Positions 19,806 through 31,485 of a stretch of 45,436 bases of DNA are shown here, piece after piece. The notes beneath the pieces are model-generated. The model saw nothing but the letters and a program-made list of their open reading frames with translations, did not search any database and was not told where the DNA came from. Position 1 is the stretch's first letter. The number at the start of each line of letters is the position of its first letter. A program made the translations under genes and the position numbers. The stretch is from Chitinophagaceae bacterium. GTDB lineage: Bacteria; Bacteroidota; Bacteroidia; Chitinophagales; Chitinophagaceae. The stretch lies in assembly GCA_947456825.1 (NCBI GenBank), contig CANGTM010000008.1:1-45436 (forward strand), read 5' to 3'.

Positions 19806-21017
19806 TTAGGCTACTGCTTTTTTGACCAGGTCGGCCGCTTCACTGAGCAATATGGCCGATTGCACCTTAAGCCCACTCTCATCGATCAGTTTTTTGGCTT
19901 CGGTAGCATTAGTGCCTTGTAGCCGCACGATGATAGGGATATTGATGTTACCCAAATTCTTGTATGCGTCGATAACTCCTTGCGCCACGCGGTCGCAACG
20001 CACGATACCGCCAAAAATATTGATAAGGATGGCTTTTACGGCCGGGTCCTTTAAGATGATCTTGAATCCGGCTTCTACGGTTTGTGCATTAGCTGTTCCT
20101 CCCACATCCAAAAAGTTGGCGGGCTCTCCGCCACTCAACTTGATCATGTCCATGGTGGCCATGGCAAGTCCTGCTCCATTGACCATACAGCCTACATTCC
20201 CATCCAGCTTTACAAAGTTCAAATTGTATTCTCCTGCTTCAACTTCGGTTGGATCCTCTTCGGTCACGTCACGCAAAGCGGCTAGGTCGGGATGGCGGGT
20301 GAGGGCATTGTCATCCAAATTCATTTTGCAGTCCACGGCCAAGATCTTATCATCGGCTGCCTTAAACAGCGGATTGATCTCGAGCATGGAGCAATCCAGC
20401 CCAACATATGCGTTGTAAAGGTTGGTCACGAACTTAACTGCGTTCTTGAACGCATCTCCACTAAGGCCAAGATTAAAAGCGATCTTTCTGGCTTGAAAGC
20501 CTTGCAGCCCTCCTCCGGGATGCACCCACTCCTTGAAGATCTTTTCGGGGGTGTTGTGGGCCACCTCTTCGATATTCATGCCGCCTTCGGTGCTGTACAT
20601 GATCACGTTTTGTCCTTTACTTCTATCAAGAAGTATAGACAGGTAGAACTCTTGTCTTTCAGAGGGACCATCGTAGTACATGTCTTGCGCAACCAATACT
20701 TTGTTTACGATCTTACCGGCAGGTCCGGTTTGCAGGGTTACAAGGGTGCCCCCCAATATCTTCTCTGCAAAGCCGGTTATGTCTGCTTCTGTCTTACCTA
20801 CTTTTACTCCATTGATCCCCGTTTCTTTTACGGTGCCTTTTCCTCTGCCTCCGGCATGGATCTGTGCTTTTACCACCGCAAAAGGGCTGCCGGAGCTGCT
20901 CTTGATCTTTTCATACGCTGCTTTAGCATCGGCCACAGTGGCACAAGCAACGCCCTCTTGAACCGGAACATTATATTTTTTTAATAATTCCTTTGCCTGG
21001 TATTCGTGCAGATTCAT
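19806..21017 (-). CDS. sucC: Succinate--CoA ligase (ADP-forming) subunit beta
   Basis: The product is the ATP-grasp subunit of succinyl-CoA synthetase in the TCA cycle. Starting at the conserved MNLHEYQAKELL the protein is 403 residues, with HAGGRGKG (54-61), the metal and nucleotide site region CSMLEINPL, and the C-terminal CoA-ligase part with NIFGGIVRCD. The open frame extends 52 codons further upstream, but that part would lie under the promoter and the divergent gene. The alpha-subunit gene sucD is not adjacent, which is common in Bacteroidota. Confidence 0.97.
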   Translation of the reverse strand: MNLHEYQAKELLKKYNVPVQEGVACATVADAKAAYEKIKSSSGSPFAVVKAQIHAGGRGKGTVKETGINGVKVGKTEADITGFAEKILGGTLVTLQTGPAGKIVNKVLVAQDMYYDGPSERQEFYLSILLDRSKGQNVIMYSTEGGMNIEEVAHNTPEKIFKEWVHPGGGLQGFQARKIAFNLGLSGDAFKNAVKFVTNLYNAYVGLDCSMLEINPLFKAADDKILAVDCKMNLDDNALTRHPDLAALRDVTEEDPTEVEAGEYNLNFVKLDGNVGCMVNGAGLAMATMDMIKLSGGEPANFLDVGGTANAQTVEAGFKIILKDPAVKAILINIFGGIVRCDRVAQGVIDAYKNLGNINIPIIVRLQGTNATEAKKLIDESGLKVQSAILLSEAADLVKKAVA

Positions 21018-21033
21018 TGGAGAAAAATTTTCG

Positions 21034-21041
21034 CAAAGATA
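21034..21041 (-). promoter_or_regulatory. TAnnTTTG -7 element of sucC
   Basis: On the minus strand TATCTTTG matches the Bacteroidota -7 consensus, 16 bases before the sucC ATG. The -33 region reads TTTC 18 bp upstream, a weak match. Confidence 0.55.
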
Positions 21042-21055
21042 AGGCAAATCGCTCG

Positions 21056-21087
21056 TTGTGAAATTTGATGACAAGGCCCTATTTTCG
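21056..21087 (+). promoter_or_regulatory. Candidate promoter of the 21091 lipoprotein gene
   Basis: TTG at 21056-21058 is followed after 21 bp by TATTTTCG at 21080-21087, a near match to TAnnTTTG, only three bases before the ATG. It overlaps the sucC promoter region on the other strand. Confidence 0.4.
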
Positions 21088-21090
21088 GAT

Positions 21091-21858
21091 ATGATCCGCC
21101 TGCTGCTGTGTTGTTGTTTGCTAGGTCTGGGGGCTTGCCGGCCGACCCGCCTGTTGCCGCTACCCAAGAGCAACCCGTCTGCGGGGGGAGCGGTATTTTA
21201 CCAGCAGGCCTTCGCCATGGGATGGGCAGCGCGCGATTCATTCATATTGCAACAGCTACAAGCGGCAAGCATTCCCTCTTTTCTGCGAAAGTTGGTTCCG
21301 GTGCGTGTTACCATACCCTCCGAGCCTAAGCCAGTAGAAGTTACTTTTTTTGTGTCTCCGGATTACCTCAGTGTTGGTAACGATCAAGACTGGGCCCGCG
21401 TGAGTCTAACGGCAAAAGGGGCGGCTCAGGCGTTGTCGATGCTCGATTGTTTTGCTCCTACTCCGCGGTTGATCGATCTTATTTACCGGCAGGCCAAGGT
21501 AAAGCTGGCCCCTGTACCACTTTTTGCCCATCGAGACAGCACACCAGTAATGTGGCATCACCATTTGATCATAGAGGGGCAGCGAAAGCAACGAAAGGGG
21601 TTGATAGCCGGCATAAAAAAAGATATTGTTTTTGTAAATGCAAAGGGTGATTCTGTGATGGGTAATCGGGTAGGGATCTACGGTTGGCATAAGACGGATG
21701 CAGTACCCATTCAGCCTTTTTATCAAGGACATGTTTGGTGGTATACCGATTATAGTCATGGGTTACGATTGGTTTCGAGGCGGGTAAAAGTAGGTCGTAA
21801 GTGGACCAACGTCGAGGCCTTACTGAGAGATACTATCTTGCGAGCGAGTTTGTTTTAA
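21091..21858 (+). CDS. Conserved lipoprotein of unknown function with a WYTDYSHGLRLV motif
   Basis: Starting at ATG 21091, the 255-residue protein has a lipoprotein signal with lipobox LGAC (Cys16), preceded by a run of three cysteines in the membrane core. The mature protein has an N-terminal FVSPDYLSVG strand, a segment with C120 and PTPRLIDLIY, WHHH (155-158), GWH (198-200) and GHVWWYTDYSHGLRLV (213-228). The clustered His, Asp, Tyr and Trp residues look like a catalytic or ligand site, but I do not know a named family. The GTG at 21058 would add a non-signal extension and is rejected. The putative porin follows 59 bp downstream. Confidence 0.75.
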   Translation: MIRLLLCCCLLGLGACRPTRLLPLPKSNPSAGGAVFYQQAFAMGWAARDSFILQQLQAASIPSFLRKLVPVRVTIPSEPKPVEVTFFVSPDYLSVGNDQDWARVSLTAKGAAQALSMLDCFAPTPRLIDLIYRQAKVKLAPVPLFAHRDSTPVMWHHHLIIEGQRKQRKGLIAGIKKDIVFVNAKGDSVMGNRVGIYGWHKTDAVPIQPFYQGHVWWYTDYSHGLRLVSRRVKVGRKWTNVEALLRDTILRASLF

Positions 21859-21917
21859 CGTTACCTTTCGTTTGTAGCCGTTAAATTTGTGGCACCGCCA
21901 AAACACTGCCTGTCGTT

Positions 21918-23972
21918 TTGTTATTGCTAAGACCATACCTGCTCATCTTGCTTTGCCTGACGGTTTTGCAAGTGAGCGCTCAAGACCCTCGCGCACAACC
22001 GTTGCCTACCCGAGGGGGTATGCCAGTTAATATGGGGGGTATCGGTGGCAAACGTCAGGGTATGGGAAACTTGCTTCGCTCAGAGGGCACCGATAGTTTA
22101 AAGCGTCGTGACAAAAATGAGGATTCCATTACTATTTTTTATCGATTGCTCGACCGATGGGGTCCCTTTATGCTTGACTCCTCCGTTTCTGATTTTACCA
22201 GGCGGTTTCCTATAAAGGCTTCTACCATTCATTTGGGTAATCTGGGCAGCGCCTCCCGCTCCTTCCTGTTTAGTGCACCCGGTCAGATCGGCTTAGACCC
22301 CGGCTTTCATGCGTACGATCTATACAAGTGGAGCGAAGAGGATGTTCGTTTTTTTCAAACGACCCGCCCTTATTCGGAGATCAATTATCAACTCGGCAGC
22401 AGGGTAGAGCAGCTGATCAGTTTGTTGCATACCCAGAATATCAAGCCTAACTGGAATTTTATGTTTCAGTATCGGTTAGTGAATTCTCCGGGTATCTTTC
22501 AGCATCAGCGAAGCAATCATAATAATTATTTGTTCAGCAGCCGCTACCAGTCAAATAATCTTCGCTATCACGTGTGGATGTATGTGTTGGGCAACCGCCT
22601 CCAGTCGGAAGAGAACGGCGGCATCATCGATACCACCAATATTCTTGACGACCCTATCTATAACGATCGATTCAATATTCCGGTATGGTTAGGAGGAACC
22701 TCAACATTCTCGGCTAATTTTTTCAGCAACGCTATCAGCACGGGTAATCGCTACCGACAAACACAGTTTTTGTGGCGCCAGCAATATGATCTTGGGAAGA
22801 GGGACTCCCTGGTCACCGATTCTACGGTAGTGCCGTTATTTTTTCCCCGCTTGCGACTGGAACATCAGCTGCGTTACGACCGTTCCGATTATAATTTCTT
22901 TGACAAGCAGCCCCGTTTCGAATTTTACGAAAGATTTTATCCGGGCCGTCCTGCCCAATTCGATTCGCTGGAGCTGCGGGATAATTGGCGAACCCTGTCG
23001 AATAGCTTTTCGATATATCAATTTCCGGACGCAAAAAATCTTCAGCAATATTTTAAGCTAGGGGCCGAATTGCAAGTGTTGCAAGGACAAACGCGCAATG
23101 GCGAATTTTCGTTCGTCAATACGATCGGCCAGTTCTTATATCGAAATGTAACGCGAAACAAGAAATGGGAGATCGAGTTGGGAGGCCAGGTCTTTTTGGC
23201 CGGGGAGCACAGTGGCGATTACCGAATTCGCATGCAGTTACAGCGGTCCTTAGCCTCAAGGAACGGTACAATACTGGTGGGTGCGCAGCAAATCAACCGC
23301 ACCCCTTCCTTCATTTATGATGCCCGCAGCAGTTTCTTCTTGACCTCGTCGACTTTTTCTTTCAAAAAAGAAAATTACACTCAATTCTTTTCGGTGATCG
23401 ACTGGGGCGCGCTGGGCCTTACCCTTAGAGGGGATTATTTTTTGGTAAACAATTTCAGCTATCTGCTCGATTTTCAGAAGCCTTTTCAAGCCATCTCTTT
23501 GTTCAATGTGTTGCAGCTGCAAGCTCTCAAGACCTTTCGACTTGCCAAGCATTTTCGTTGGCATGCCGAGTTCTATTTTCAGCAGCGTGTAGGTGCGGCT
23601 CCGCTTAACCTGATGCCCTTTTTTACGCGCCACCGATTGGCTTATGAGGGTAACTTGGGGTTTAAGAATTTAAAACTGGCCACCGGCTTGGAGGCTCGTT
23701 ACCGACCCCCTTATAAGGCCGACAGCTATTCGCCGCTGCTGGGTCAGTTCTTTTTTCAAGATCGGGTAGTGATCAGCAATACCTTACCCGATATCTCGGC
23801 CTATGTTAATTTCAGGATCCGGCCATTTACCGCTTTTGTTCGGGCCGAAAACCTTAATACGGCCCGTGACCTGCAAGGATTTGGGTTTACTCGCAATAAC
23901 CTGTTGGCCGAGGGCTATCCCTTGCAAGGGCTCCATTTAAGGGTAGGTATTTTTTGGCAATTTGTTAATTGA
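21918..23972 (+). CDS. Putative porin (PF14121-type outer membrane beta-barrel)
   Basis: This is a 684-residue protein with a signal peptide ending VSA-Q (about residue 21), a Gly/Arg/Pro-rich linker, and then a long series of amphipathic strands with aromatic belts, ending in the beta-barrel signature WQFVN. It resembles the putative porin family of Bacteroidota. Typical segments are the RRFPIKASTIHLGNLGSASR region and the YSEINYQLGSRVEQL strand. No plug or TonB box is visible. The start appears to be TTG at 21918, since the first ATG lies after the signal peptide. A TAAATTTG box at 21882-21889 could be the -7 element. Substrate unknown. Confidence 0.85.
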   Translation: MLLLRPYLLILLCLTVLQVSAQDPRAQPLPTRGGMPVNMGGIGGKRQGMGNLLRSEGTDSLKRRDKNEDSITIFYRLLDRWGPFMLDSSVSDFTRRFPIKASTIHLGNLGSASRSFLFSAPGQIGLDPGFHAYDLYKWSEEDVRFFQTTRPYSEINYQLGSRVEQLISLLHTQNIKPNWNFMFQYRLVNSPGIFQHQRSNHNNYLFSSRYQSNNLRYHVWMYVLGNRLQSEENGGIIDTTNILDDPIYNDRFNIPVWLGGTSTFSANFFSNAISTGNRYRQTQFLWRQQYDLGKRDSLVTDSTVVPLFFPRLRLEHQLRYDRSDYNFFDKQPRFEFYERFYPGRPAQFDSLELRDNWRTLSNSFSIYQFPDAKNLQQYFKLGAELQVLQGQTRNGEFSFVNTIGQFLYRNVTRNKKWEIELGGQVFLAGEHSGDYRIRMQLQRSLASRNGTILVGAQQINRTPSFIYDARSSFFLTSSTFSFKKENYTQFFSVIDWGALGLTLRGDYFLVNNFSYLLDFQKPFQAISLFNVLQLQALKTFRLAKHFRWHAEFYFQQRVGAAPLNLMPFFTRHRLAYEGNLGFKNLKLATGLEARYRPPYKADSYSPLLGQFFFQDRVVISNTLPDISAYVNFRIRPFTAFVRAENLNTARDLQGFGFTRNNLLAEGYPLQGLHLRVGIFWQFVN

Positions 23973-24068
23973 CAAGTTGTTTGCAGATGGTATGGTTGTT
24001 ATCCTTTACACGGCCCCTCTGTGCGCCGCTCTTCGGAAAGGGTATTCCCATGCTTTTTATAAAATGCT

Positions 24069-24076
24069 TATTTTTG
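24069..24076 (+). promoter_or_regulatory. TAnnTTTG -7 element at the head of the metal-handling genes
   Basis: TATTTTTG matches the -7 consensus and ends five bases before the ATG at 24082. It lies inside a longer open frame and supports the shorter start for the next gene. Confidence 0.5.
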
Positions 24077-24081
24077 TACTG

Positions 24082-24474
24082 ATGTCTCGGGCACTTTTAT
24101 CTATATCGATGCTTTGTTTAGTGATCCTGTCAAGCGGGTTGACCCTGAACGTTCATTTTTGTATGAATCAGGTAGAGGATGTCAGCCTTTTTGCCACTGA
24201 TGAACATCAATGCGGCACTTGCGGAATGAAGCAGCAAGAAAGCGGTGGGTGCTGTCATCAAGAAAAGCAGTTGGTTAAACTGATGCAGGACCAATGCCCT
24301 CCGCATTTTATTCAGTATACAATTGCCTCTGCCAGTGTTTTTGCACTGCCTGAGCAGACTATTATAGGGTTGATCAACGAAAAATCGCTTGGTTCGGCCA
24401 CCGATCATTTCTACCATCCACCTGATTTTTCTTCGCCACCGCTTTTTCTACGTAATCGTGTTTTTAGGATCTGA
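24082..24474 (+). CDS. HYC_CC_PP family-like envelope protein
   Basis: ATG at 24082 gives 130 residues with an N-terminal hydrophobic segment (about 5-24) that is a signal peptide or anchor. It is followed by the motif set that names the family: HFC (25-27, for HYC), CGTCGM (44-49), CC (57-58) and CPP (72-74). Such small cysteine-rich envelope proteins occur next to heavy-metal genes in Bacteroidota and are presumed to bind or sense metal. Longer starts at 24064 or 23962 would put the hydrophobic segment far inside and overlap the porin gene. It begins the metal island and is followed by a large hairpin. Confidence 0.75.
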   Translation: MSRALLSISMLCLVILSSGLTLNVHFCMNQVEDVSLFATDEHQCGTCGMKQQESGGCCHQEKQLVKLMQDQCPPHFIQYTIASASVFALPEQTIIGLINEKSLGSATDHFYHPPDFSSPPLFLRNRVFRI

Positions 24475-24545
24475 TAGCTGGTTTACGTGATCGTAAATCG
24501 CGTGCCCTCGTCCTGTAGAAAAATAGTAGTCAAAAGACCAGCTAT
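24474..24545 (+). promoter_or_regulatory. Large inverted repeat between the HYC_CC_PP-like and HMA genes
   Basis: An 11-bp stem pairs 24474-24484 (core TAGCTGGT) with 24535-24545 (core ACCAGCTA), with one G-T wobble and a 50-nt loop. Within the loop side lies a second palindrome, TTTACG-TGAT-CGTAAA (24482-24497), which shares bases with the stem, so the two structures exclude each other. It starts at the last base of the upstream stop codon and ends 48 bases before the HMA gene. There is no T-run directly after the stem. It could be an attenuator, a processing site or a repressor operator. Confidence 0.45.
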
Positions 24546-24593
24546 GCGTACCAATCGTTTTTATATACAAATTCTTAAAAGAAAAAAATCTTT

Positions 24594-25097
24594 ATGAAAA
24601 AGCAATATTTATTCTCTCTTCTCCTCTCAGCTTTGATGAGTGTTTCTTTAGTTATGGCCCAGTCGGTTACCGAGCGTTTTCAGGTATCCGGTAACTGTGG
24701 AATGTGCAAGTCCAAGATCGAAAAGGCTGCCAAGGCTGCCGGTGCTTCTTCTGCGGCTTGGAATGAGGACAGCAAAGAACTCGTCGTAAGTTTCGACAGT
24801 GGCAACAGCAGCGTGGCCCAAATTCAGCAAAAGATCGCCGAAGTAGGGTACGATAACGCGGGTGCCCGCGCTACCGACGCGGCTTACGATAAATTGCATG
24901 GCTGCTGCAAGTACGAGAGGACTGCGGCAGTCGCTAGTCCTGCTTGCTGCAAGGGTGGTGTTTGCTCCAAGTCTAGCGAGAAGAATTGCTGCAAGAACGG
25001 CAAGTGCACGGCTTCCTCAAAAAAGGAGGAGTGCTCTAAAGACGATAAATGCGCCAAGGGATCTGATTGTAAGAAGAGTTGCTGCTCTAAATCCTAA
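24594..25097 (+). CDS. Secreted heavy-metal-associated (HMA) protein with cysteine-rich tail
   Basis: The 167-residue protein has a signal peptide (1 to about 22), then an HMA domain (about 24-92) with metal site GNCGMC (C35, C38) followed by the usual helix KSKIEKAAKAAG and the strand KELVVSFDSG. From 101 to the end there are 13 cysteines in 67 residues, as CC pairs and CxxxxC spacings with many lysines, like a metallothionein. The HMA part is typical of copper or mercury binding proteins. The tail suggests a periplasmic or surface metal buffer. It follows the hairpin at 24474-24545 and lies 8 bp before a second HMA gene. Confidence 0.88.
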   Translation: MKKQYLFSLLLSALMSVSLVMAQSVTERFQVSGNCGMCKSKIEKAAKAAGASSAAWNEDSKELVVSFDSGNSSVAQIQQKIAEVGYDNAGARATDAAYDKLHGCCKYERTAAVASPACCKGGVCSKSSEKNCCKNGKCTASSKKEECSKDDKCAKGSDCKKSCCSKS

Positions 25098-25105
25098 GGC
25101 CACGT

Positions 25106-25627
25106 ATGCTTAAAAAAATTACCATGCTGTTGCTTCTGTTTTGGGGGCAACAGCATGGCTTTGCACAGTTCAGTGAGGCCAAGTTACAGGCCACGGGACT
25201 GACCTGTGCACTGTGCAGCAAAGCCATCCATCAGGAACTCGAAAAATTGCCTTTTGTTCAGAAAGTCAGTGCCCGCATCAAGGAATCGGCCTTTGATATC
25301 ATCGCAAAGCCGGGTGAATCCATTGCTCCCGACCAAATTCGGACTGCCGTTGAGGATGCCGGCTTTTTCGTTGGGGCCCTGTACCTAACTCGAGCCCAAT
25401 CGGCTTCAATCCCCGAAGCTAATGCCCCCTTCAAAGAAGGAAGTAGCTACTTCTGTGTTTTGGGCTCCGGTGGAAAAGGGCCAGGAAGCACCTACCAGGT
25501 ACTCAATGAGCATTTTTTGACCGAGAAGGCCTTTTCAAAGCTCAGTGCCGGCTCGCTGGGCGCCACACTCCGGCAGCAGCCCGTATCGATCGAGGGTACT
25601 CCGGTGTTTTATCTTAAAATGCAATAA
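25106..25627 (+). CDS. Secreted HMA-domain protein
   Basis: The 173-residue protein has a signal peptide (1 to about 20) and an N-terminal HMA domain with GLTCALC (C34, C37), the helix KAIHQELEKLPFVQKV and the final strand up to about residue 93. The C-terminal part (about 95-173) is a separate small domain with one Cys, not recognised. The two metal-site cysteines are intact. The gene sits 8 bp after the Cys-rich HMA gene and 2 bp before the TlpA-like gene, so the four genes are almost certainly one transcript. Confidence 0.88.
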   Translation: MLKKITMLLLLFWGQQHGFAQFSEAKLQATGLTCALCSKAIHQELEKLPFVQKVSARIKESAFDIIAKPGESIAPDQIRTAVEDAGFFVGALYLTRAQSASIPEANAPFKEGSSYFCVLGSGGKGPGSTYQVLNEHFLTEKAFSKLSAGSLGATLRQQPVSIEGTPVFYLKMQ

Positions 25628-25629
25628 GG

Positions 25630-26166
25630 ATGCAACCGATCTTCAAACAACTTCATACACTGCGTGTAACGATGTTGTTTATGTTAGTAGCGTTATTAGC
25701 ACTACCGAATAGTCCAACTTCGACCTTTGCCCAGCCCCAGTTTCAGCAGCCTGCTCCTGCATTGGTATTGCCAGACAGGACCGGCAAGCAGGTCGATCTG
25801 CGCACCTTTAGAAACGGCTATGTCTTGGTAGATTTTTGGGCATCGTGGTGCCCTCCCTGCCGGGTTTTTAATCGGACACTGGTAAAACTATATAAGCGGT
25901 TTCATTCCATGGGTTTTGAAGTATTGAGTGTCTCACTCGATGAGGATAGAAAGGCCTGGCAGCGTGCTATTCGCACCGATGGCATGGTGTGGGCCCAATT
26001 GGTCGACACGATGGCCTGGAATTCAAAAGTGGCTACTGCTTGGGACGTATTGGGCGTGCCCAATAGTTTTCTCATAGATCCCGAGGGAAATATAATAGCC
26101 CGCAACCTGCATGGTGGCGAATTAGAAAAGAAGCTAGAGGTGATCTATAAAAAGCAAAAGCCATGA
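25630..26166 (+). CDS. TlpA/ResA-like thiol-disulfide oxidoreductase
   Basis: The 178-residue protein has an N-terminal signal or anchor (about 11-35) and a thioredoxin fold of the TlpA/ResA type. The active site is WCPPC (73-77), preceded by YVLVDFWAS, with the cis-proline loop GVPNSFLID. Such proteins keep periplasmic cysteines reduced, for example those of cytochrome c or copper-binding proteins. In this operon the likely clients are the cysteine-rich HMA and HYC_CC_PP-like proteins, which is inferred. It overlaps the next gene by four bases (ATGA). A start at ATG 25672 is also possible. Confidence 0.92.
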   Translation: MQPIFKQLHTLRVTMLFMLVALLALPNSPTSTFAQPQFQQPAPALVLPDRTGKQVDLRTFRNGYVLVDFWASWCPPCRVFNRTLVKLYKRFHSMGFEVLSVSLDEDRKAWQRAIRTDGMVWAQLVDTMAWNSKVATAWDVLGVPNSFLIDPEGNIIARNLHGGELEKKLEVIYKKQKP

Positions 26167-27002
26167 AGAAGAAAGTAGGAAGTCTTTTGCTGTTTTTGCA
26201 GCTTGCCTCTTTTGCTGCATTGGCACAAGAGCTCTATGTTTTTACCGAACCGGCCTCTGTAATGCCCGCTCGCTCACTTACCGTTCGCTCCCGAACCCAT
26301 ATGATGGGCGAGAACGTAATGTACGATCGTTTTACCTTCCGCAATGGATTGCAACTGATAGCTGGTTTATCGGGTCGTTGGACCATGAAGGTGGGGGGTA
26401 GTTGGGGTAATATGATGACGTATGCCGTAAAGCCCGAGTCGATCGGATTTTATTCGCGTTATCGGTTGTTATCTACCGATGATGTACATCGTCATTTTCG
26501 ATTGGCGGCCTATGTGGAGGGAGCTTATACGGCTGCTCCCTTTGATCATGATGAAGTATCGCTAATGGGAGACAAGTCTGGAGTAGAGGCGGGTATTATC
26601 GCTACGCGGTTAACGCAGAGGCTGGCCCTTTCGGTTACGGGTTCTCATACACAGGTGCTGCATTACTCCCGCAAAAATGCGGCACTCTTCGATCCGGCCC
26701 GTACGTTTCAGACCATGCAACTCAGTCTCTCCGGAGGGTACTTGGTTTTTCCAAGAGAGTACAAAGATTACCGACAGACCAATTTGAACATCTATACCGA
26801 ATTATTAGGCCAGCGTTCTCTCGACAACAGTAGATATTACGTGGATATGGCCCCGGCCTTACAGTTGATATTCGCTAGTCGCACGAAACTAAACCTCGGT
26901 TATCGTTTTCAGCTGGGCGGAACCATGAACCGCATGGCCCAGCGAAGTTGGCTCTTAAGCCTCGAGAGTACCTGGCTGGGTTTCTTTAAAAAGAGAGCCT
27001 AG
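26163..27002 (+). CDS. Outer-membrane beta-barrel protein of the metal-handling operon
   Basis: The 279-residue protein has a signal peptide (1 to about 21), then repeated amphipathic strands with aromatic ends, such as WTMKVGGSWGNMM, IGFYSRYRLL, HFRLAAYVEGAY, and a last strand WLLSLESTWLGFF. It looks like a small outer-membrane barrel of the kind found at heavy-metal loci in Bacteroidota, not a known transporter family. Histidines and methionines near 46-52 and 109-130 may matter for metal binding but could be chance. Its TAG stop overlaps that of the convergent barrel gene within CTAG. Confidence 0.75.
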   Translation: MKKKVGSLLLFLQLASFAALAQELYVFTEPASVMPARSLTVRSRTHMMGENVMYDRFTFRNGLQLIAGLSGRWTMKVGGSWGNMMTYAVKPESIGFYSRYRLLSTDDVHRHFRLAAYVEGAYTAAPFDHDEVSLMGDKSGVEAGIIATRLTQRLALSVTGSHTQVLHYSRKNAALFDPARTFQTMQLSLSGGYLVFPREYKDYRQTNLNIYTELLGQRSLDNSRYYVDMAPALQLIFASRTKLNLGYRFQLGGTMNRMAQRSWLLSLESTWLGFFKKRA

Positions 27003-27802
27003 CGTTTGGTAAAGGCGGCAACGCGAAAAGAAAGCCCTACTGCAATGTAGTTGTCGATCGCTTGCTCTGAAATACCCACTCCGGCAGAGACGTCTAGTTT
27101 AATATCATCATTCACATAGTAGGCGACACCCCCATCAACGGCATGTGCCGGCTTTTCTCCACGAACGATGCTACCAAAGGCCTCTACATAGCCGTACCAT
27201 CTTTTTCCGATGTTCATGCCGGGCGCGATGGTATAGATCCAGGTGGCCTGGTTGGAGAAGCCGTTCCATTCGGCGCCTAGGTTATAGCCGAGTGCTGTTT
27301 GTTCTCCGAGGGTGTGTTGCATCACAAAACGAAAATTGGGAGACCAACGTGGGGTGCGAAAATTTTTTGATCCCAGCGAAGGTATTCCGGTATGAAAGAT
27401 GAGCGAGGTGGCGGGTATTAATTTGTTCTCTTTACAGAGTGCGATCTTTCCCCCTATTTGTACGGGTAATAATCCGCTGGCATTCTCTGGAAACGAAGGG
27501 CTCATTAGCAAGGGCTTTACCGTGTTGAGTTCGGTAATAACGCGCAATTCGAATTTCTCGTGCAGCCCCGCCTTCCATAGTGCAGTGGGGTGAACGACCA
27601 CTCTCGAACCCAGGTATCTTTCGTTATTAAAGCCGATCTCTCCTTGTATGTAGCCTTTCTTCGTAATGTAAAAGCTTTCTGTTTGATCGGGCCGGTCGGT
27701 TTCCATTCGTCCACTCTGTTGAGCACGGGTCGAAAAACTGATCAGGATCAGGCTTACCAACCAGCCAAAAGATCGTATTTTTAAAATATTATTTTGTAGC
27801 AT
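26999..27802 (-). CDS. Phenol_MetA_deg-type outer-membrane transporter-like protein
   Basis: The 267-residue protein has a signal peptide (about 1-28) and opens with the family pattern METDRPDQTES, followed by the strand GYIQGEIGFNNER and other barrel strands ending in GLSFRVAAF. This matches the transporter-like family once named for MetA-pathway phenol degradation (PF13557 type), which in Bacteroidota is often encoded beside heavy-metal genes. No phenol genes are nearby. It converges on the metal operon with a four-base overlap of stop codons and has its own promoter. Confidence 0.8.
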   Translation of the reverse strand: MLQNNILKIRSFGWLVSLILISFSTRAQQSGRMETDRPDQTESFYITKKGYIQGEIGFNNERYLGSRVVVHPTALWKAGLHEKFELRVITELNTVKPLLMSPSFPENASGLLPVQIGGKIALCKENKLIPATSLIFHTGIPSLGSKNFRTPRWSPNFRFVMQHTLGEQTALGYNLGAEWNGFSNQATWIYTIAPGMNIGKRWYGYVEAFGSIVRGEKPAHAVDGGVAYYVNDDIKLDVSAGVGISEQAIDNYIAVGLSFRVAAFTKR

Positions 27803-27818
27803 GCTAGTTATTCAACAA

Positions 27819-27849
27819 TAAAGATAGTAGTATCTCGTCCTTTGGCAAA
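27819..27849 (-). promoter_or_regulatory. Bacteroidota promoter of the 26999-27802 barrel gene
   Basis: On the minus strand TTTG (27846-27849) is followed after exactly 19 bp by TATCTTTA (27819-27826), one base from the TAnnTTTG consensus. It lies 16 bases before the ATG. This is among the best two-box matches in the window. Confidence 0.65.
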
Positions 27850-27874
27850 TGACAGCATTCATAAATTAAAGATT

Positions 27875-28609
27875 ATGGAGACCAACAGAAGGACCTTTCT
27901 TAAAAGCACGGCTGGCTTACTGGCTCTTTCGGGCTGGACGGCTGCAGCCCGCGATACTTTTTTTTCATTACCTATGGGTGATATCAATTACCTGCAGCAG
28001 CCCTTGCCGTTCGCGTATGCGACCTTGGAGCCTGTCATCGATGCTATGACCATGGAAATACATTACACGAAGCATGCGGCTGGCTATACCAAGAATCTGC
28101 AGGATGCCTGCCTTGCCGAAAAGGTAGATAAAGCCAACACATCGCTAACAGCGTTGCTGGCGCGGATCTCGAACTACTCAGAAAAAATGCGAAATAATGC
28201 AGGCGGCCACTACAACCATGAGTTATTTTGGCAAACGCTGCGGGCGCCGCAAGATGCAGCCAGTAATAAGCCTTCTGGGGTGTTGGCGGCAGCTATCGAC
28301 AAAAAATTTGGTTCCTTTACTGCCTTCAAAGAACAGTTTTCCGAGGTCGCTAAATCTCGCTTCGGCAGTGGCTGGGCTTGGTTGCTGGTGGGGCAAGAGG
28401 GATCATTACAGTTGGGATCCACGCCTAACCAAGATAATCCACTTATGGATACTTCTTCGCTAAAGGGTTTTCCATTGCTGGGGCTAGATGTTTGGGAGCA
28501 CGCCTATTACCTGCGTTATCAGAATCGCCGCGTCGATTACATTTCCTCGTGGTGGCAACTTGTCAATTGGCCCGTGGTGGAGCAGCGCTATTTACAGACA
28601 ATACGCTAA
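27875..28609 (+). CDS. Tat-exported superoxide dismutase (Fe/Mn family)
   Basis: ATG at 27875 gives 244 residues starting METNRRTFLKS, a twin-arginine signal followed by a hydrophobic stretch (12-24). The Fe/Mn SOD domain follows with metal ligands H63, H115 (in GGHYNHELFW), D205 and H209 (in DVWEHAYYLRYQ). The Tat signal suggests export of the folded, metal-loaded enzyme to the periplasm, unusual compared with the common cytosolic form. The segment GSTPNQDNPL favours manganese or cambialistic use, but that cannot be settled by eye. A longer start at 27842 would bury the Tat signal. The gene lies next to the metal island. Confidence 0.92.
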   Translation: METNRRTFLKSTAGLLALSGWTAAARDTFFSLPMGDINYLQQPLPFAYATLEPVIDAMTMEIHYTKHAAGYTKNLQDACLAEKVDKANTSLTALLARISNYSEKMRNNAGGHYNHELFWQTLRAPQDAASNKPSGVLAAAIDKKFGSFTAFKEQFSEVAKSRFGSGWAWLLVGQEGSLQLGSTPNQDNPLMDTSSLKGFPLLGLDVWEHAYYLRYQNRRVDYISSWWQLVNWPVVEQRYLQTIR

Positions 28610-28626
28610 GTAACCCTTACGACTTT

Positions 28627-31485
28627 TCAAGCCTCTTCTGCATAAGATGATACAGGTTCGCAGGTACAGACCAGGTTTCTGTCTCCATGCGTATTGTTGA
28701 CCCTCGATACGGTAGGCCAAAACTTGTTATGCGTTACGTAATAGAGCGGAAAGGCTGCCTCTTGGCGAGTATATGAGTGCGGCCAGTGGTCGGCCATCAC
28801 GGTTTGCTGTGTGTGGGGTGCGTTTTTAAGGGGATTATCCTTCTTGTCGACTTTGCCATTCTCGATAGAGCGAATCTCTTCTCTGATAGAGATCATGGCA
28901 TCGCAAAAACGATCAAGCTCGGCCTTGTCCTCACTTTCAGTAGGCTCGATCATAATGGTACCCGCAACCGGAAAACTCATGGTAGGCGCATGAAAACCAT
29001 AATCCATCAATCGCTTGGCAACATCTTCTGCTTCTATCTCGGCCGACTTTTTAAAAGGGCGCAGATCGACGATGAACTCGTGAGCGCATTGCCCACTTTG
29101 GTTCGTGTATAGAATGTCGTAATGCTGCTCGAGTCGGGCACGCATATAATTTGCATTCAATATCGCATACTCGGTCGCTGCCCGTAAGCCGGTGGGTCCC
29201 AGCATTCGAATGTATGCATAGGAGATCAGCAAAATAGAAGCCGATCCATAGGGTGCTGCCGACACGGCCGATGAACTTCCTTGGTGCGTATGTCCGGGTA
29301 GGTAGGGGGCCAGGTGCGCCTTTACACAAATGGGACCCATGCCAGGGCCGCCACCGCCGTGGGGGATGGCAAATGTCTTATGTAGATTTAGGTGACAGAC
29401 ATCGGCACCGATAAGACCGGGGGCGGTAAGTCCTACCTGTGCGTTCATGTTAGCGCCATCCATGTACACTTGCCCGCCATGCTCATGAATGATGCCGGTA
29501 ATTTCTTTGACGGTCTCTTCGTAAACGCCGTAGGTACTAGGATAGGTGATCATGATGCCGGCCAATTCGGTGCTATATTGAATGGCCTTGGTTTTGAGAT
29601 CATCCATGTCGATATACCCGTTATCGAGTGCCTTTACCACTACTACCTTCATGCCAGCCATTACTGCAGACGCCGGGTTAGTACCATGTGCAGAGATAGG
29701 GATCAGCATTACGTTACGATGTGGCTCTCCATTGGCCTGGTGAAAGGCACGAATGGTGAGAAGACCGGCATATTCTCCCTGAGCTCCGCTATTGGGTTGC
29801 ATGCTACACGCATCAAAGGCAGTGATGTCGCACAGGTAATTGCTGAGTTGATCGATCACATATTGATAACCTCTTGTTTGTTCGGCTGGGGCGAAAGGAT
29901 GAATGCTGCTCCACTCCGGCCAACTAAGGGGCATCATTTCAGTGGCGGCATTGAGTTTCATGGTACAGCTGCCTAGCGAGATCATCGAGGTGTTGAGTGA
30001 TAGATCGCGGTTCTCGAGTTGTTTGATGTACCGCATCATTTGGCTTTCACTGCGGTGGGTATTAAAAACGGGATGTGTCAGATATGCACTGTTCCTGAGC
30101 AGCGAAGCGGGTATAGCCTCACAGCTTTCTTTCTCGTTGAAGGAGGTTTCGCTATCGATGGAGGCTTCAAAGCATGCGGCAATAGCTTGGAGGGTGGCAC
30201 TATCGGTTGTCTCATCGAGGGTAATACCAATGTGCCCGTTTTCAAAGTAACGGAAGTTGAGTTGCTTGGCCTCGGCCTTAGCACGTATCAAGGCTGTTTT
30301 GTCCGTTTCGATCACCAATGTATCAAAATAGTGCGATGCAGTCAGCGTATGGCCACTACGTTTGAGAGCGGTAGCTAGTCTGTGGGTGAAACCAGCTACT
30401 CGCATGGCGATGTGTTTAAGCCCGTCAGGTCCATGATACACGGCATACATGGCAGCCATGTTGGCAAGCAGGGCTTGGGCGGTGCAAATATTCGAAGTGG
30501 CTTTTTCGCGTTTGATATGTTGCTCACGCGTTTGAAGGGCCATTCGCAGCGCTCTTTTTCCTTTTGCATCGATGCTGATACCTATAATACGACCGGGGAT
30601 ACTTCTTTTGAATTCATCTTTGGCTGCAAAAAATGCGGCATGAGGTCCTCCGTATCCCAACGGAATACCAAATCGTTGGCTAGACCCTACGGCCACATCA
30701 GCTCCTAATTCTCCGGGAGGGGTCAACAAGGTCAGGGCCAGCAGATCGGTGGCCATTACTACATAGGCTCCTTGTGCATGAACTTGGTCGATGAAGGCCT
30801 TATAATTTTCGATGCCGCCTTTTTCGTTAGGGTATTGCACGATGGCGCCAAAGTAAGTCTTATCGATTACGGCTTGCTGATAATCACCGATTACAATTTC
30901 GATCTGCACGGGTATAGCACGGGTACGAAGTAAATCGATGGTTTGTGGAAAGCACGCGGCATCTACAAAGAACTTGGGTCTTTCGATATGGTCTTGTCGG
31001 TTCAGGGAGTTAAAGAACATCGTCATAGCCTCTGCTGCGGCCGTAGCCTCATCGAGTAACGAAGCGTTAGCTATGGGTAGCCCAGTCAGGTCGCTCACCA
31101 TGGTTTGGTAGTTAAGCAGGCTCTCCAATCTGCCTTGTGCGATCTCTGCCTGGTAAGGCGTGTATTGCGTGTACCATCCCGGATTTTCGAAAATGGTGCG
31201 TAATATAACAGAGGGAGTGATGGAGGGATAGTATCCTTGACCAATAAAATTCTTCCAGACTTGGTTTTGTTTTCCGACTTCGGCTATATGTTGCAAGTAT
31301 TGGTATTCACTGAGTGGCTGCGGTACGTTGAGCACCCTGTTCATTCGGATACCAGCAGGAACTGTTTTGTCGATCAGCGAAGAAAGTTGTGATTCGCCAA
31401 CGGTCTGCAGCATCTCTTTTTCCTGCGTGGCCGATCCGTTGTGACGAGCACTGAATTCATTGGATTGCAATGCGAGCAAATTCAT
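28627..31485 (-). CDS. gcvP: Glycine dehydrogenase (decarboxylating), P-protein
   Basis: The product decarboxylates glycine with PLP and passes the aminomethyl group to the lipoyl H-protein of the glycine cleavage system. At 952 residues it is the single-chain form. It shows YIPHTP-type features near the start (GQGYYPSITPSVILRTIFENP), the second-half signature SLGSCTMKLNA, and the PLP lysine in LNLHKTFAIPHGGGG, with K703. The other cleavage-system genes (gcvT, gcvH) are not in the window. A TACCTTTG box upstream gives a short leader, so no glycine riboswitch fits. Confidence 0.98.
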   Translation of the reverse strand: MNLLALQSNEFSARHNGSATQEKEMLQTVGESQLSSLIDKTVPAGIRMNRVLNVPQPLSEYQYLQHIAEVGKQNQVWKNFIGQGYYPSITPSVILRTIFENPGWYTQYTPYQAEIAQGRLESLLNYQTMVSDLTGLPIANASLLDEATAAAEAMTMFFNSLNRQDHIERPKFFVDAACFPQTIDLLRTRAIPVQIEIVIGDYQQAVIDKTYFGAIVQYPNEKGGIENYKAFIDQVHAQGAYVVMATDLLALTLLTPPGELGADVAVGSSQRFGIPLGYGGPHAAFFAAKDEFKRSIPGRIIGISIDAKGKRALRMALQTREQHIKREKATSNICTAQALLANMAAMYAVYHGPDGLKHIAMRVAGFTHRLATALKRSGHTLTASHYFDTLVIETDKTALIRAKAEAKQLNFRYFENGHIGITLDETTDSATLQAIAACFEASIDSETSFNEKESCEAIPASLLRNSAYLTHPVFNTHRSESQMMRYIKQLENRDLSLNTSMISLGSCTMKLNAATEMMPLSWPEWSSIHPFAPAEQTRGYQYVIDQLSNYLCDITAFDACSMQPNSGAQGEYAGLLTIRAFHQANGEPHRNVMLIPISAHGTNPASAVMAGMKVVVVKALDNGYIDMDDLKTKAIQYSTELAGIMITYPSTYGVYEETVKEITGIIHEHGGQVYMDGANMNAQVGLTAPGLIGADVCHLNLHKTFAIPHGGGGPGMGPICVKAHLAPYLPGHTHQGSSSAVSAAPYGSASILLISYAYIRMLGPTGLRAATEYAILNANYMRARLEQHYDILYTNQSGQCAHEFIVDLRPFKKSAEIEAEDVAKRLMDYGFHAPTMSFPVAGTIMIEPTESEDKAELDRFCDAMISIREEIRSIENGKVDKKDNPLKNAPHTQQTVMADHWPHSYTRQEAAFPLYYVTHNKFWPTVSRVNNTHGDRNLVCTCEPVSSYAEEA

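Follow-up and report, generated by a model that had tools for sequence, protein, structure and literature searches.

Results

An HMA protein with a cysteine-rich tail

The window analyzed here, a stretch of 45,436 nucleotides that makes up one contig (C8) of a Chitinophagaceae assembly of 1.82 Mb and 113 contigs, encodes an HMA protein ending in a cysteine-rich tail. The tail is homologous across relatives and under purifying selection, and the genes HYC_CC_PP - HMA - HMA2 - TlpA - outer-membrane barrel form a conserved cluster around it (Table 1). We read the protein as an exported soft-metal carrier, most likely of Cu(I), with an attached thiolate buffer, and assign this reading a probability of roughly 55%.

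The HMA domain was recognized by PF00403 with an E-value of 1.5e-5 (25.7 bits, gathering score 24.8), and the protein missed the NCBIfam cut-offs for CopZ (28.9 of 91 bits) and MerP (24.4 of 92.55). The closest named record belongs to a Chitinophagaceae MAG and shares 93% protein identity. The protein has 15 cysteines (35, 38, 104, 105, 118, 119, 124, 132, 133, 138, 147, 153, 159, 163 and 164). The thirteen from 104 onwards had been listed in the initial annotation of this DNA and every one is present at its assigned position; the base given there for residue 101 (24895) is one late, the codon beginning at 24894. The protein is very probably exported. Apart from the N-terminal segment listed in Table 1, a crude pattern detected an A-x-A-like site in 63 of 102 tail-bearing proteins and a lipobox-like site in two.

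Table 1 Features of the HMA gene and its cluster in the window.
Feature	Coordinates	Strand	Basis
HYC_CC_PP family protein	23962..24474	+	NCBIfam NF047658, E 6.6e-12, over cut-off
HMA protein with Cys-rich tail, 167 aa	24594..25097	+	ORF list, Pfam, Cys positions
Probable cleavable signal peptide, residues 1-23	24594..24662	+	By eye: KKQY, hydrophobic stretch, VMA-Q
HMA domain, residues 34-87, metal-site motif GNCGMC (C35, C38)	24693..24854	+	PF00403
Family motif YDKLHGCCKYER, residues 97-109, with C104 and C105, closing the folded domain	24882..24920	+	Alignment
Cys-rich tail proper, residues 110-167, 11 Cys, predicted disordered	24921..25094	+	
HMA2, probably secreted, site CALC, without Cys tail	25106..25627	+	PF00403, E 9.3e-6
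TlpA/ResA-like thioredoxin, WCPPC	25630..26166	+	PF00578, E 2.1e-19; NCBIfam ResA NF002854, E 1.5e-20, below the model's cut-off
Conserved outer-membrane beta-barrel protein	26163..27002	+	12-strand model

The boundary between domain and tail

Fifty-one selected proteins, of which 39 carry a tail and 12 lack one, were aligned, and C35, C38, Y98, L101, C104, C105 and Y107 are invariant among them. The YxxLxxCCxYxR motif also terminates the tail-less relatives, which end a few residues past the CC; in the more distant relatives L091, L093 and L094 the CC is kept but Y107 is not. AlphaFold2 run on this alignment modelled residues 21-110 with pLDDT blocks of 90-98 and everything beyond them with 44-61. 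Foldseek placed CopZ (6ff2, TMt 0.89) and MerP (1osd, TMt 0.86) at the head of the PDB matches to the HMA part, all nine matches with E ≤ 0.001 being HMA-type proteins, and the nearest solved relatives and folds are the CopA, CopZ and MerP domains. Because Cys104 and Cys105 are invariant with and without a tail and the high pLDDT extends to residue 110, both cysteines lie in the folded module and the tail starts at about residue 110, so that the addition amounts to 11 cysteines in 58 residues. The tail of 13 cysteines originally described behind a complete HMA domain is thereby shortened: the eleven past residue 110 stand, whereas C104 and C105 belong to the HMA family module.

Distribution among relatives

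Searches yielded 266 core matches, which came down to 233 unique relatives with the HMA module once duplicates and rows lacking the Y..L motif were discarded. For this set, as for the analyses of composition and spacing, a tail was counted from at least 4 Cys and 8%. Such a Cys-rich tail, 36-117 residues long with 4-22 cysteines (median 11), is present in 102 relatives, while 94 stop no more than 25 residues past the motif, 27 have other long ends and 10 lie in between; the contrast between tail-bearing and tail-less proteins leaves out the 27 and the 10 (mostly Cys-containing, under the criterion). For counts of genomes, flanks, cluster and kinship the criterion was at least 3 Cys and 5%.

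The tail occurs in at least 107 of 332 distinct genomes searched from the same family, representing 36 genera. Among the 157 family genomes examined, through a hand-compiled table of loci, genomes and genera, the corresponding values are 107 genomes and 36 of 61 genera, which is too high as a frequency because most of these genomes were the highest-ranked in a search with a tail-bearing query. The view that the domain is usually the end of a secreted HMA protein thus describes the 94 short relatives but not the window's family, in which the tail is common. Cultured relatives with the cluster include Terrimonas ferruginea DSM 30193 (L041), whose tail has 4 Cys and some of whose proteins are identical to those of a genome of this family (L030), and a Flavihumibacter (L043) with 11 Cys in the tail. 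All 31 genomes examined from the window's own genus have it; of 42 searched in that genus, four (G002, G020, G031 and G034) gave no match and a few others gave weak ones. Outside the family but within the order, six of ten loci have the motif, and one of these, an HMA protein at L258 (G082, contig C59), carries a different Cys-rich end of its own, perhaps gained independently. Trees of the short HMA core, which are weakly supported, require no fewer than 14 changes of tail state. Three MAG records titled Limnohabitans (L060), Sphingomonadales (L032) and Streptomyces griseus (L044) have Bacteroidota-like genes and may be mislabelled bins.

Used alone as a query, the tail matched only itself in its own genome, and in 295 genomes of the class a tail-only query found one and missed the window's own tail, a sensitivity too low for it to bear on how widespread the tail is. 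At the DNA level, the pattern CCK[DN]GKC was found in six of 395 genomes of the phylum. Four are of the window's family, with the pattern at the HMA tail; the other two were taken as chance matches, since no listed reading frame of at least 40 residues encodes the motif.

Selection on the tail

Comparison of the window with L002, a relative at 93% identity, revealed 17 synonymous and 5 non-synonymous differences in tail residues 110-167 (pS 0.49, pN 0.036), corresponding to a dN/dS of 0.05 in the one unsaturated pair that includes the window; the HMA part of the same pair gave 0.04. Against a relative at 80% identity, pS for the tail is saturated (0.79; pN 0.13), and the two relatives compared with each other gave a tail dN/dS of 0.07. 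The 13 cysteines are all kept at both 93% and 80% protein identity, and their better retention relative to other tail residues is only suggestive (Fisher one-sided p 0.41 and 0.033 for the two relatives). Uniqueness and poor conservation between close strains had been named in the initial annotation as refuting its reading; the recurrence in 102 of 233 relatives and 36 genera, together with the dN/dS value, rules out a unique or decaying tail.

Composition and cysteine spacing

The 102 unique tails consist of 17.0% Cys, 20.5% Lys and 11% Asp, and only 3 aromatic residues occur among the 6554 that follow the first four of each tail. Cysteine spacing was compared with shuffles, each of 36 genera being represented by a single tail (361 Cys in total). 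Directly adjacent cysteines (CC) were observed 125 times against 58.9 in shuffles (maximum 80), and neighbours five and six residues apart were likewise enriched (68 against 27.5, maximum 47; 41 against 22.2, maximum 39). Neighbours two apart (CxC) occurred once, in the tail of L178, against 48.9 (minimum 32), and those three apart (CxxC) 11 times against 40.2 (minimum 23). In the window the successive spacings are 1, 5, 8, 1, 5, 9, 6, 6, 4 and 1, and CCK[DNGE]GKC is found in 57 of the 102 tails. Repeated CCK[DEN]GKC units, whose copy number varies among relatives, differ within 26 proteins by 144 synonymous and 14 non-synonymous changes over 406 codon comparisons; as the search pattern itself fixes most residues, this shows only that the copies are old.

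CxC and CxxC spacing is a hallmark of metallothioneins. The description of the tail as metallothionein-like is accordingly apt for its composition, rich in cysteine and poor in aromatics, but not for its spacing. Neither a metallothionein model nor any other Pfam or NCBIfam model exceeded its cut-off on the tail of the window protein or of five tail-bearing relatives, and with CxC and CxxC avoided, metallothionein was rejected as a family name. Matches to CopK in the tails of three relatives were weak and under the cut-off (E 0.065 to 2.2) and were disregarded.

A conserved gene cluster

The HMA, HMA2, TlpA and barrel genes are separated by 8, 2 and -4 bases. Upstream, the listed TTG start of the HYC_CC_PP gene overlaps the preceding gene and is probably too early. 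No Rfam family reached its gathering threshold over 21000-28700. The barrel protein falls into no Pfam or NCBIfam family; its model has a mean pLDDT of 87, and its best PDB matches are the COG4313 channel 4rl8 (TMt 0.58) and FapF 5o68 (TMt 0.62), channels of these two types scoring a TM of about 0.57-0.62. The barrel gene lies beside the HMA cluster in loci from Chitinophagaceae to Flavobacterium.

Where the flank was long enough, an HYC homologue directly preceded 75 of 76 tail-bearing proteins versus 24 of 79 tail-less ones, and CC is present in every one of the 151 HYC homologues detected. When a downstream HMA2 or barrel gene was taken to mark the cluster, and proteins lacking sufficient flank were left out, 53 of 67 tail-bearing proteins are in the cluster compared to 18 of 79 tail-less ones; the existence of these 18 indicates that the tail is not essential to the cluster. 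The TlpA-like gene, to which the initial annotation had drawn attention two genes downstream, is part of the conserved arrangement. It occurs alongside 45 of the 53 tail-bearing proteins in the cluster and alongside 8 of the 18 without a tail (Fisher p 0.0014 on raw counts, ignoring kinship). A kinship-aware test could use only four pairs, averaging 1.3 where TlpA tracked the tail and 0.1 where it ran counter to it, a number too small to carry the association beyond raw counts.

In relatives the cluster often runs on into a TonB receptor. One receptor beside the cluster (L034:7516-10095) has an N-terminal HMA-like module, confirmed by Pfam HMA, together with YxxLPxCC; similar receptors were identified by label or motif at L024, L027, L099, L101, L102, L109, L110 and L113, and by motif the module is present in 15 of 25 receptors with CCNLSE. 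That a receptor should bear a metallochaperone domain of its own seems worth noting. A Fe/Mn superoxide dismutase gene adjoins the cluster in several loci of the window's genus (27842-28609 in the window), the Tat-signal match of its product being weak and below cut-off.

Genomic context and the metal

The window's genome contains three HMA matches, two of them in the cluster, an oxidase subunit II with a CuA-type CxxxCxxxHxxM motif, and two SCO proteins. The CPC motif is absent from its only E1-E2 ATPase match (789 residues read), and four reading frames, including one under the cut-off, gave RND-family matches, from which no substrate can be inferred. With a CuA site but no recognized copper P-type ATPase, the cell would depend on periplasmic copper handling. 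The textbook copper site is GMTCxxC, from which the GNCGMC of the window differs, so that the metal may instead be Zn, Cd, Hg or Ag. Binding of soft metal by the tail is likely, copper is the probable metal of the carrier, and for a role in supply over one in pure detoxification we put the odds a little better than even. Among the copper genes of Bizionia, HMA proteins are listed as copper chaperones in the portion of PMC11213822 used here.

The evidence for copper is indirect and includes the varied surroundings of relatives on plasmids. Two tail-less relatives and two HMA-DUF3347 fusions are located near RND efflux genes, P-type ATPases, SCO, a TonB receptor or a four-helix-bundle copper-binding protein, the set differing from case to case; on a Pontibacter plasmid, a tail-less relative is found amid an RND efflux set, DUF3347, SCO, a four-helix-bundle copper-binding protein and a heavy-metal P-type ATPase. 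The same HMA module also precedes DUF3347 (L053:4968-5843) and occurs inside a Parabacteroides protein annotated as an RND efflux adaptor (plasmid match H8, NZ_OY725753.1); related modules in this adaptor and in the TonB receptors likewise speak indirectly for copper.

Discussion

As an exported soft-metal carrier with an attached thiolate buffer, the protein would work in two parts. The folded HMA domain, with its CGMC site and CC motif, would take and pass single metal ions, and the disordered Lys/Asp-rich tail, with CC doublets four to five residues apart, would wrap several further ions in thiolate clusters, one molecule constituting a small exchangeable metal store in the periplasm. Metal might enter through outer-membrane partners, be buffered on the tail and move by way of HMA2 and SCO to the CuA site of cytochrome oxidase. 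The TlpA of the cluster would perhaps keep the tail thiols reduced or restore them, much as Bradyrhizobium TlpA reduces ScoI and COX II according to the part of PMC6696091 drawn on here. A more far-reaching proposal, which we put forward tentatively and hold to be doubtful, is that the tails are metallothioneins of a new class, exported, tethered to a carrier and following a cysteine grammar of their own (CC, C-x4-C and C-x5-C, with almost no CxC or CxxC), and that vicinal cysteines form a Cu(I) hand-off chain from the HYC CC to the CC of the HMA end, the CC repeats of the tail and a CC in the TonB-receptor plug.

The tail could, alternatively, be a detoxification sponge trapping surplus periplasmic Cu, Zn, Cd or Hg, without a function as a supply store, the HMA domain merely loading it or passing metal to an efflux pump. 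The two plasmid-borne tail-less relatives whose neighbors include RND efflux and heavy-metal P-type ATPase genes are in line with this, as is the presence of MerP among the nearest folds, and where no copper-type P-type ATPase is recognized, as in the window's genome, trapping could replace export. We nevertheless regard it as unlikely: tail-bearing copies reside mostly in the HYC-HMA-HMA2-TlpA-barrel cluster, no recognized efflux pump stands beside them in the drawn loci (in which not all unnamed neighbors were identified), and TlpA and TonB-receptor neighbors fit supply or uptake better.

A redox device is a decidedly weaker candidate. Here the CC pairs of the tail would form disulfides, with TlpA or another thioredoxin as partner in electron exchange; alternatively, cross-linking would simply stabilize the tail. 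TlpA is indeed encoded in the cluster, CC doublets are in excess over all 102 tails (412 seen, 202 expected), and the number of cysteines is even in 63 tails and odd in 39, which could hint at disulfides; however, the window protein has an odd total of 15, vicinal cysteines rarely pair with each other, CxxC as the usual motif of thiol exchange is avoided, and disorder and high lysine content fit metal wrapping. That the tail is a functionless, low-complexity extension born of slippage is very improbable, for despite the variable copy number of the repeat unit and the 14 or more state changes on weakly supported short-core trees, the selection test (tail dN/dS 0.05) largely refutes it and the cysteine spacing is far from that of shuffles.

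The HMA domain, thiolate metal stores and exported copper stores such as Csp1 are already known. We did not find the HMA-tail fusion, its spread or the spacing rule in the open-licence PMC literature, judged mostly by titles and the beginnings of abstracts; searches there for HYC_CC_PP and for 'periplasmic metallothionein' returned nothing, and matches combining metallothionein and Chitinophagaceae were judged unrelated. Bacterial metallothioneins and most copper stores have been described from the cytosol. If the carrier with its buffer is real, it would show how one Gram-negative group, across 36 genera and with a conserved cluster, keeps exchangeable soft metal outside the cytoplasm, and tails with 4 to 22 cysteines would provide a natural panel for how spacing sets the number of metal ions and their release.

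Compared with known systems, the window protein shares its fold and a single CxxC site with the HMA metallochaperones CopZ and MerP; CopZ is cytosolic; MerP is periplasmic, as proposed for the window protein. It differs from both in its GNCGMC site, the additional YxxLxxCCxYxR end and the 11-cysteine tail. With the metallothioneins SmtA/BmtA and MymT the tail has in common a short Cys-rich stretch with few aromatics, but it is fused to an HMA domain, is probably exported, avoids CxC and CxxC, and matches no model. Metallothioneins are placed in the cytosol in the part of PMC7558416 used here, where Csp1 appears as an exported store holding many Cu(I) ions on cysteine thiolates, an established idea. 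By analogy, the exported thiolate store proposed for the tail would resemble Csp1, although the latter is a rigid four-helix bundle and the tail is attached to a carrier and predicted to be disordered. Finally, the Bradyrhizobium TlpA-ScoI-COX II system, in the portion of PMC6696091 cited above, offers a precedent for a periplasmic thioredoxin serving a copper chaperone; here the partner would be a tailed HMA protein.
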